Below the pieces are notes generated by a model that had not been told where the DNA came from, did no database searches, and saw only the letters and a program-made list of their open reading frames with translations. 63,441 nucleotides of DNA, from positions 1 through 63,441 of the forward strand of contig NZ_FOCO01000019.1 of the NCBI RefSeq assembly GCF_900110135.1. The letters run 5' to 3'. The translations under genes and the position numbers were made by a program. This document shows, piece after piece, positions 60,374 through 63,441 of this stretch (positions are counted from its first letter, which is position 1; each line of letters opens with the position of its first letter). This stretch comes from Pseudorhodobacter antarcticus. Its GTDB lineage: Bacteria > Pseudomonadota > Alphaproteobacteria > Rhodobacterales > Rhodobacteraceae.

Positions 60374-60402
60374 AAAAAGCGCCGCATTGCCGGCGCTTTT
60401 TT
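60374..60402 (+). terminator. Intrinsic terminator of thrS
   Basis: AAAAGCGCCG-CATTGC-CGGCGCTTTT with a following T run lies 22 bases after the stop. It isolates thrS from the bufferin operon, whose promoter must lie in 60403-60540. Confidence 0.93.
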
Positions 60403-60551
60403 CATGCTATGATTGTGCGGCGATTTGTAACACTTGGTCACGCGGGCGTTGCACACGGCCCTGTGATTGGCAGGTTACCGATAAGGCGCGCTAGCACTAA
60501 GACATCGCAACAGAGCGATCGGGTTTAACAGCTGAAAAGGGAAATTTTACC

Positions 60552-60836
60552 ATGATGAACACAAAAACACTTGCCGTTGCTGGCGCTTTGGCTGCTGCCC
60601 TTGCCGCGTCTGTGGCCCCCGTTTCTGCACAATCGCAGGAAAAATGTTTTGGGGTGGCTTTGGCCGGGCAGAACGGTTGCGCGGCAGGCGAAGGCACCAC
60701 CTGCGCCGGGTCGTCCAAGGTGGATTATCAGGGCAACGCATGGTCGCTGGTGCCAGCGGGCACTTGCACCACGATGGAATTGCCAGAAGGCCGCATGGGC
60801 AGCCTTGAGGCGCTGGACCGCGACATGGCGGGCTGA
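60552..60836 (+). CDS. bufA: Bufferin-type precursor peptide (BufA1, DUF2282)
   Basis: 94 residues; the start is the ATG at 60552 or the next one at 60555, after AAGGGA. A Sec signal peptide ([20 protein letters not shown], then VAPVSA) is followed by a short mature chain with four Cys: [21 protein letters not shown] and VPAGTCTTM. This spacing matches DUF2282 proteins, the BufA1 precursors of bufferins. In these RiPP metallophores, central Cys residues are converted to thio-oxazole groups by the MNIO enzyme and the exported product binds copper. First gene of a four-gene operon with the enzyme pair and a DoxX protein. No leader peptide apart from the signal sequence is apparent, as expected for the family. 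Confidence 0.9.
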
Positions 60837-60905
60837 TCTGCCCCAGATCGCATGTGATTGACCCCTGCCACGACTGGCGGGGGGCGCATTTTGAAAGGAC
60901 GCGTT

Positions 60906-61751
60906 ATGGTTGATGCTGTGACCCCTGCCCTGCCGAATGGTCCGGGTGTTGGCTATAAGGCCCAGCATTTCAACGATATTTTGGCGGCGCCGGGGGCTGT
61001 GACTTGGCTGGAAATTCATGCCGAGAATTACATGGGCGACGGTGGCCGCCCTTTGGCGCAGCTGCGGCATTTGGCCGAACGGTTCGCGATTTCGGTGCAT
61101 GGCGTGGGCCTGTCGATTGGCGGCGAGGGGCCGCTGGACGCCGCGCATTTGGCGCGATTGAAACATTTGTGCGACTGGCTGCGCCCAGCCAGTTTTTCCG
61201 AACATCTGGCGTGGTCGACGCATGATGGGGCCTATTTGAACGATCTGTTGCCCCTGCCCTATACCCCTGCCACCGTGGCGCGCGTGGCCGATCATGTGGA
61301 CCATGTGCAATCGGTTTTGGGGCGGCGGATGCTGCTGGAAAACCCGTCATCCTATCTGGCCTTTGCGGGGGCCGAGATGGCGGAGGTGGAATTTTTGCGC
61401 GAGGTGGCGGCGCGCACGGGCTGTGGGTTGCTGCTGGATGTGAACAATGTGTTCGTGTCGGCGGCGAATTTGGACTTTGATGCGGCGGCGTATTTGGCTG
61501 ATTTCCCGCTGGATTTGGTGGGCGAAATCCATTTGGGCGGGCATTTTGTCGATGCAGATGATCATGGCGCGGCACTGTTGATTGACCATCACGGCGCGGC
61601 GGTAGTGGACCCGGTTTGGGCGCTGTATGCGGATGTGATTGCCAAAGCAGGCGCGCGCCCGACCTTGATTGAATGGGATAACGACGTGCCCGACTGGCCA
61701 GAATTGGTAGCCGAGGCGGCCCGCGCGGCAGCGATTTTGGTGCCTGCATGA
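60906..61751 (+). CDS. bufB: MNIO-family (DUF692) maturation enzyme BufB
   Basis: 281 residues from the ATG at 60906 ([20 protein letters not shown]) after GAAAGGA; the extra codons to 60858 are non-conserved. The TIM-barrel DUF692 shows [108 protein letters not shown] and [13 protein letters not shown]. The conserved His, Asp and Glu residues of the multinuclear iron site are present in these blocks. It is expected to oxidise Cys in BufA. Its stop overlaps bufC. Confidence 0.93.
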
Positions 61752-62479
61752 TGCGCGAGGCTGGGTTTATGGCCGCCCTGTTGGACCCCGAAATGGCGGT
61801 GCCTGCGGGGCTGGTGGATGCGCGGGGCCAGCCTGCGGGGCGGCGGTTTTCGGTGTATCGCAACAACGTGGCGGGCAGTTTAACAGATGTTTTGGCGGCG
61901 GGATTTCCGGTGTTGGAAAAGCTGTTGGGGGCGGCGTACTTTCGCGCTTTAGCGGGGGTATTTTTGCGCGCCCATCCGCCACAAACGCGAATGATGATGC
62001 TGTATGGCGCGGATATGCCTGTGTTTTTGGCGGGGTTTGCGCCGCTGGCCCACCTGCCCTACATGGCCGATGTGGCGCGGTTGGAACAAGCATTGCGCGA
62101 AAGTTATCACGCGGCGGATGCGGCGGCGCATGACCTAAGCGCGCTGGGGCCGGAGCCGTTTATGGCGGCGCGGCTGGTATTGGCCCCCGGTGTGCGGTTG
62201 CTGCGCGCGCGCCATCCCGTTTTGTCGATTTGGCGCGCGAATATGGAGGGCGGGCCTGCGCCACGGATGCAGGCGGAGGATGTTTTGATTGTAAGGCCGG
62301 AATTTGACCCCGTGGCGCATGTGTTGCCCACCGGGGGGGCCGCGTTTGTGGCAGCGTTGCTGGCGGGCGACAGCGTGGGGGCGGCGTTTGAGGCGGCGGG
62401 CGACGGGTTTGATGTGAATGTGGTGCTGGGCCTGTTGGTGGGCGGCGGTGCGATTGTGGGATTGAAGGAGGATTTGTGA
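61748..62479 (+). CDS. bufC: DUF2063-family partner protein BufC
   Basis: 243 residues; the ATG at 61748 overlaps the bufB stop (ATGA). The N-terminal DUF2063 ('putative DNA-binding') domain has [67 protein letters not shown]. The C-terminal half ([13 protein letters not shown], then [27 protein letters not shown]) is the PqqD/HvfC-like RiPP-recognition-type domain. Such proteins present the precursor to the MNIO enzyme rather than acting as transcription factors. Confidence 0.9.
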
Positions 62480-63045
62480 TGGACCGCGTGATGGGACTTT
62501 ATAGCGGCGCGGTGCGGGGGATCGAGGCATCGGCGGCGGGCCTGTTGCCGTTGGCGGCGCGGGGGGTGTTTGCGGCGGTGTTGCTGTTTTATTTCTGGAC
62601 ATCGGCACTGACGAAATTGGGGCCCGGGGTGGCGGGCGTGTTTTTGCCATCGGATGGGGCGTATATTCAAATCTTTCCCAAGACGACGGAGGCGTTCGGA
62701 TATGATTTCAGCCAGTTTGGCGTGTTTCATTGGGCGGTGGTCGCGGCGGGCACTTGGGCAGAGTTTATTTTGCCATTGTTGATCGTGGTGGGGCTGTTCA
62801 CGCGGTTGGCGGCCTGCGGGATGATTGGGTTTGTGATTGTGCAATCGGTGGTCGATGTGATGGGGCATGGCGTGGGCGGCGACACGTTGGGGGCGGCGTT
62901 TGACAGCGCATCAGGCGCGCTGATCTGGGACCAGCGGTTGTTGTGGGTGTTTTTGCTGCTGGTTTTGGTGGTGAAAGGCGGCGGGGCGCTGGCGTTGGAC
63001 CGGGGCTTGGCGCACGTTTGGGGGGCGCGGTCACAGAGGGCTTGA
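62479..63045 (+). CDS. bufD: DoxX-family membrane protein BufD
   Basis: 188 residues; the ATG at 62479 is six bases after AAGGAGGA and overlaps the bufC stop. Four membrane helices are predicted (AARGVFAAVLLFYFWTSALTK, WAVVAAGTWAEFILPLLIVVGLFTRLAACGMIGFVIVQSVVDVMG, LLWVFLLLVLVVKGGGALALD). The DoxX fold shows FLPSDGAYIQIFPKTTEAFGYDFSQF in the first loop. Its role in bufferin operons is not established; an electron-transfer or membrane redox role is suggested. Last gene before the IS110 element. Confidence 0.88.
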   Translation: MDRVMGLYSGAVRGIEASAAGLLPLAARGVFAAVLLFYFWTSALTKLGPGVAGVFLPSDGAYIQIFPKTTEAFGYDFSQFGVFHWAVVAAGTWAEFILPLLIVVGLFTRLAACGMIGFVIVQSVVDVMGHGVGGDTLGAAFDSASGALIWDQRLLWVFLLLVLVVKGGGALALDRGLAHVWGARSQRA

Positions 63046-63135
63046 TTTTTGCGGGCGTTTGGGCATGATTTTACCAGTGGTGACAGAGTTTATTGCTTGT
63101 CTTATGAAGGTCCCAGCTTTTGTGCGAAACAAGAG

Positions 63136-63233
63136 CCACAGACAAGCATTTTGAAATGCTTGTCTGTGGTGGTGGTTGGATCGTTTAGAGCTTGGTCTTT
63201 GAGGACCGTATCAGAGTAAGATCAACCACCACC
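63136..63233 (+). ncRNA. Structured non-coding region before the IS110 transposase (candidate bridge RNA)
   Basis: A perfect 16-base-pair hairpin (CCACAGACAAGCATTT and its complement, 2-base loop, 63136-63169) is followed by a long stem. In that stem GGTGGTGGTTG at 63168-63178 pairs with CAACCACCACC at 63223-63233 around an internal GGTC/GACC hairpin. A hairpin followed by a stem with looped-out segments, upstream of the recombinase, is the layout of IS110 bridge RNAs. Boundaries and transcription are not shown. Confidence 0.45.
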
Positions 63234-63293
63234 TTCGCCACAGGCCTGAACGGATACAGAGCGGCACGAAGCCCTCTAGGACAAGCATAGGAT

Positions 63294-63441
63294 ATGACGA
63301 AGATGCCCGATGATACCATTGGTATAGATATTTCCAAAGCCACTTTAGACATTCACCGGCTGAGCGACGGGAAGATGATGTCGTTTAGCAATTGCCCTGC
63401 AGGATTTAAGGCGCTTTCCAAGTTCTGCGCACAGACGACGG
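63294..63441 (+). mobile_element. IS110-family transposase, N-terminal 49 residues (runs off the right edge)
   Basis: From the ATG at 63294 the frame reads MTKMPDDTIGIDISKATLDI and HRLSDGKMMSFSNCPAGFKALSKFCAQTT. GIDISKATLD holds the first Asp of the DEDD RuvC-like catalytic site of IS110 recombinases. The remaining part, including the Ser of the C-terminal domain, lies outside the window. The element inserted downstream of bufD; its left end is within 63046-63290, as IS110 elements often lack terminal inverted repeats. Confidence 0.9.

Follow-up and report, generated by a model that had tools for sequence, protein, structure and literature searches.

A conserved dyad upstream of a bufferin-1 operon in Pseudorhodobacter antarcticus is a candidate operator in most Rhodobacteraceae

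Bufferins, modified peptides that handle copper, are a recently described class, and the buf operon of Pseudorhodobacter antarcticus led us to ask what switches it. The operon lies close to one end of the window, by which we mean the whole stretch of 63,441 nucleotides that was analyzed. It is an ordinary, complete bufferin-1 operon of four genes, and the order and strand given for bufA, bufB, bufC and bufD in the initial annotation were confirmed, as were the overlaps of bufB with bufC and of bufC with bufD (Table 1). The start of bufB was assigned to the ATG behind AAAGGA, with the TTG at 60858 likewise open.

Table 1. Positions of the buf genes and of the control features proposed upstream of them, in window coordinates.
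Feature	Position	Strand	Remarks
Terminator-like hairpin	60374-60401	listed on minus	thrS/buf operon interval; T run on both sides, the plus strand ending in one as well
GTAAC half-site	60427-60431	+	lies 10 bp before the dyad; element positions -9 to -6 are conserved as TNAC
Dyad element	60438-60471	+	proposed operator of the buf operon; 34 bp; from matrix and genome scans
-35-like hexamer TTGGCA	60467-60472	+	inferred; overlaps the 3' end of the dyad element
-10-like hexamer TAGCAC	60492-60497	+	placed by the spacing in relatives; lacks the last T of TANNNT
bufA	60552-60836	+	bufferin-1 precursor, DUF2282; four Cys; conserved C-terminal tail
bufB	60906-61751	+	MNIO bufferin maturase
bufC	61748-62479	+	DUF2063 partner protein; 4-base overlap with bufB
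bufD	62476-63045	+	DoxX-family membrane protein; GTG start; 4-base overlap with bufC

All four proteins scored above their Pfam cut-offs for the families to which they had been assigned: BufA with 83.6 bits against DUF2282 (cut-off 22.4), BufB with 349 bits against MbnB_TglH_ChrH, BufC with 82.6 bits against DUF2063 and BufD with 26.8 bits against DoxX (cut-off 23.6). BufB also reached 375.5 bits against the NCBIfam model MNIO_BufB (NF050167, curated cut-off 310) and matched MNIO enzymes of solved structure in sequence; the NCBIfam models HvfC (for BufC) and HvfX (for BufD) gave sub-cut-off matches only. Ten acidic, Asn and His residues of BufB, of the type that builds the metal site (E40, H65, H100, E145, D178, N180, H209, D227, H229 and E256), are identical in all 38 aligned sequences, and the iron ligands are taken to be among them. 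A genome search identified bufB as the sole MNIO gene of P. antarcticus, and there is one convincing DUF2282 gene, the second match being weak, below the cut-off and interrupted by one stop.

The translation of BufA contains four Cys and what looks by eye like a signal peptide. It had been suggested that a long tail after the last Cys is peculiar to this copy, but this is not supported: the tail has 22 residues, the median of 91 held-out relatives being 27, and its motif G-[SA]-[LM]-x(2,5)-R-D is found in 79 of those 91 precursors. The tail is accordingly not unusual in length or sequence and was rejected as a distinguishing feature. Directly before the second Cys, 34 of 38 precursors carry Asp and 2 carry Gly, BufA of the window being one of the latter; the 91 held-out precursors divide into 83 with Asp, 7 with Gly and 1 unmatched. 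The Gly of BufA adjoins a predicted modification site.

Upstream, a terminator-like hairpin is present behind thrS, in agreement with the separation of thrS from the buf genes that had been described. No ECF sigma factor gene is found within 8.9 kb upstream, which supports its reported lack of linkage; downstream, the contig extends for just 0.4 kb beyond bufD. In the flanking frames of selected relatives, many of them antisense, no linked regulator gene was recognized by eye except for the ECF and NrsF genes of two loci (L060 and L069), the ECF gene of L060 matching sigma-70 regions 2 and 4. A cold-shock-like and an ArsC-like protein were recognized by eye in flanking frames downstream of bufD. 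Within the sequence fetched, thrS lies upstream in 20 of 38 loci.

About 50 bp behind bufD a multicopy repeat begins (63095-63441), inside which the contig ends. Eleven other places in the genome carry copies that are 99-100% identical, and eight of these copies lie at the end of a contig or close to it. The 49-residue reading-frame fragment of the repeat gave no match to the DEDD_Tnp_IS110 profile, and a longer copy of the frame (71 residues) gave a weak, sub-cut-off match (E 0.0018). The repeat is therefore likely an IS110-type element, as proposed in the initial annotation. A 15-pair inverted repeat (63136-63169) lies in the 5' part of the repeat, before the reading frame, and could be part of a non-coding RNA or an end structure. 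No tie between the element and the buf operon was found at the window's locus.

The regulation of the operon had been called an open question, but an operator-like conserved dyad before bufA had been missed. This conserved stretch was first noticed when upstream regions were placed side by side. A matrix iterated from four hand-picked seeds across the 38 upstream regions of our first set of relatives (38 of 61 genomes hold BufB, P. antarcticus included) yields 19 sites, 18 of them in Rhodobacteraceae and one weak site from another family (L065, 10.6 bits leave-one-out), which did not enter the 18-site matrix used for training. The 18 family sites scored 22.9-38.7 bits when each was left out in turn, and the maximum of 760 mononucleotide shuffles was 7.4. 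The consensus, TSACG-N4-CGTG-N3-CACG-N4-YGTGA-N-TGG, contains a 29-bp double palindrome, which in the window occupies 60438-60466. Complementary bases stand at positions 1/29, 3/27, 4/26, 10/20, 11/19 and 12/18 in 17-19 of the 19 sites, as against 4-8 for the N4 stretches, a pattern more in keeping with a double palindrome in DNA than with a hairpin in RNA. A further half-site, GTNAC-like and less conserved than the upstream TNAC, lies near element position 37.

We then applied the 18-site matrix to the bufA regions of all 91 DUF2282-positive genomes that belong to a 150-genome family set and lie outside the first relatives. The dyad was found at 12 bits or more in 67 of these 91 regions, with a maximum of 9.1 bits among 455 shuffles; because the site is palindromic, reverse-strand scores (up to 30 bits) are useless as a control. 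The held-out dyads keep a near-fixed distance to bufA, and, measured from the first Cys codon of that gene, their start shifts over a range of 50 bases. In a further 80 loci, 78 with enough upstream sequence and some from genomes counted before, there were 60 dyads and 6 sigma-F-type motifs, with both together in none.

Scans of whole genomes gave a similar picture. The P. antarcticus genome has one match to the dyad pattern at 0 mismatches and one other at 3. At up to 2 mismatches 23 of the 61 relatives match, and a backwards-pattern control also gives four matches, so only matches with 0-1 mismatch were counted (the strict dyad). The strict dyad is found in 35 of the 150 family genomes (control 0 of 150), and all 35 are among the 110 DUF2282-positive genomes (Fisher 4.7e-6; as with every p-value given here, the rows are related and independence is overstated). 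Their coordinates place the match shortly in front of DUF2282 in 34 of these genomes and ahead of bufB in the remaining one; two genomes (G132 and G180) each contain one additional strict match at a distance from buf. Among 237 genomes of the class beyond this family, a single one contains the strict dyad, with bufA and bufB absent from its 3-kb locus, and this lone match is taken as chance.

In the genome with the match before bufB (G094, locus L103), the copy at 1804-1836 is perfect and directly precedes bufB, and a weaker copy of 14.6 bits precedes bufA; this operon may be split into two units. Two loci (L040 and L150) have tandem bufA, with two DUF2282 genes side by side. The dyad of L040 has one extra base and fails the matrix, and it was counted as a dyad on the BufB tree only. 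In that tree, which is largely unresolved, the dyad rows share their part of the family with an ECF row (L045) and unlabelled rows; a single gain of the dyad within the family is possible.

A Caulobacter operon homologous to buf is under sigma-F control through GTAACC-N16-CGAA (PMC3511200). The motif GTAAC-N17-CGAA is present in 5 of the 38 upstream regions of the first set, each with an ECF gene nearby and each without the dyad; a sixth ECF locus (L069) has a relaxed form of the motif only. None of the 67 held-out loci with the dyad has an ECF gene in the 1.5 kb fetched, compared with 10 of the 24 others (Fisher 3e-7), and the sigma-F motif is likewise missing from all 67 but present in 5 of the 24. 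NrsF was matched in 23 of the 150 family genomes (22 of them over the cut-off), all of which lack the strict dyad (exclusion among the 110 DUF2282-positive genomes, p 3e-4). At the level of the matrix, two genomes have a dyad together with an NrsF match: G175 (L090), with a 25.0-bit dyad, has a clear NrsF gene on a different contig, and in G152 (L087) a 17.0-bit dyad is accompanied by a weak, sub-cut-off NrsF match with two stops. For this reason the exclusion is not strict by genome, but it holds for every locus examined. One further locus (L161) combines an ECF match with a degenerate dyad-like stretch of 0.5 bits. Of the 24 held-out loci without the dyad, 14 likewise lack an ECF gene in what was fetched, and neither feature shows in five loci of the family from the first set (L052 and L054-L057), which speaks against a clean split. 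The dyad appears to replace the linked sigma factor switch of some relatives.

The position of the dyad suggests how it could act. Of 85 sites, 48 have a TANNNT whose first base is at element position 54 or 55, and no other starting point is used by more than 3 sites; with a -10 box at 54 or 55, the -35 box would fall on the TGGC at the 3' end of the element. In the window, the -35-like and -10-like hexamers are 19 bp apart. In this arrangement, a protein at the dyad would touch the -35 box, which is the geometry of an activator, although repression is also compatible.

Taken together, the locus is a standard bufferin-1 operon that, as in most Rhodobacteraceae, is probably switched by a putative DNA-binding regulator encoded elsewhere and acting at the dyad, and not by a linked ECF factor with NrsF. 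This regulator would bind the 29-bp double palindrome, with the 3' end of the element overlapping the -35-like hexamer. We infer protein binding, activation over repression, copper as the signal and an unlinked regulator gene. As judged from family membership, BufA would be exported by Sec, BufB and BufC would convert its two central Cys into copper-binding thiooxazoles, and the modified product would buffer periplasmic copper.

The dyad could instead belong to the 3' region of thrS or be an RNA element unrelated to buf, as 58 of the 67 held-out dyad loci lie behind thrS. We find this scarcely credible: in the other 9 the fetched sequence contains no thrS, which ties the dyad to buf and not to thrS, the strict dyad is found in none of the 40 DUF2282-negative family genomes, and one genome has its perfect copy directly before bufB. 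An RNA is also disfavoured by the N4 stretches, which do not pair across the dyad, and Rfam gave no match. That the buf operon answers to an ECF system of the sigma-F/NrsF type, with its genes at another place in the genome, is suggested by the Caulobacter operon described above, yet it seems very unlikely here, given that the P. antarcticus genome has no NrsF match at E up to 0.1, that GTAAC-N17-CGAA was not found before bufA in the window, and that the carriers of this motif among the 38 regions are all ECF-adjacent.

A rival that differs from our preferred reading in regulon breadth only is harder to set aside. The dyad may be the strongest site of a global regulator, such as an OmpR-type response regulator, with looser sites elsewhere that would escape the strict patterns used in our scans. 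Half-sites follow at steps of about 10 bp on both sides of the dyad (the TNAC at -9 and the GTNAC-like site near 37), and tandem winged-helix dimers would give half-sites at such steps. Against this, the full dyad occurs close to once per genome and is located at buf. We regard a global regulator as a serious possibility, if short of an even chance. Returning to an unlinked regulator acting at the dyad, its more specific form is a rewiring within Rhodobacteraceae, from a linked ECF/NrsF pair to a dedicated, single-target regulator of an unrecognized kind that is encoded elsewhere and would bind two adjacent palindromes at the bufA promoter; this we put forward tentatively and with some doubt. 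The dyad offers an exact DNA bait for capturing its putative regulator in culturable marine bacteria, and a signature that would predict which switch a given bufferin operon follows.

By title and abstract, no operator or regulator of Rhodobacteraceae bufferin operons was found among the open-licence literature matches listed. The operon shares its MNIO and DUF2063 partner with the EGKCG-type clusters, for example those of fontiphorin and of Microbulbifer, where the portions of the articles available assign this pair to thiooxazole installation (PMC13097082, PMC12538549); those clusters have repeat-type precursors, whereas the precursor here is a DUF2282 protein. The sigma-F operon CC3254-CC3257 of Caulobacter crescentus has the same DUF2282-DUF692-DUF2063-DoxX order and a precursor of 93 residues, but neither its GTAACC-N16-CGAA motif nor a sigF/CC3252 pair, as described in the accessible part of that paper, was found at the window's operon (PMC3511200). 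With the Bufferin-1 (Buf1, DUF2282) clusters of Antoine et al. 2025 (PMC12452194), the operon has in common the core of precursor, MNIO, DUF2063 and DoxX proteins and the four conserved Cys. It differs from those clusters, as they are presented in the available part of the text, in having no linked sigma factor or NrsF gene and in the conserved dyad before bufA, of which that part makes no mention. As far as our searches went, the dyad would be a control element without earlier description, one by which most Rhodobacteraceae depart from the sigma-F model.
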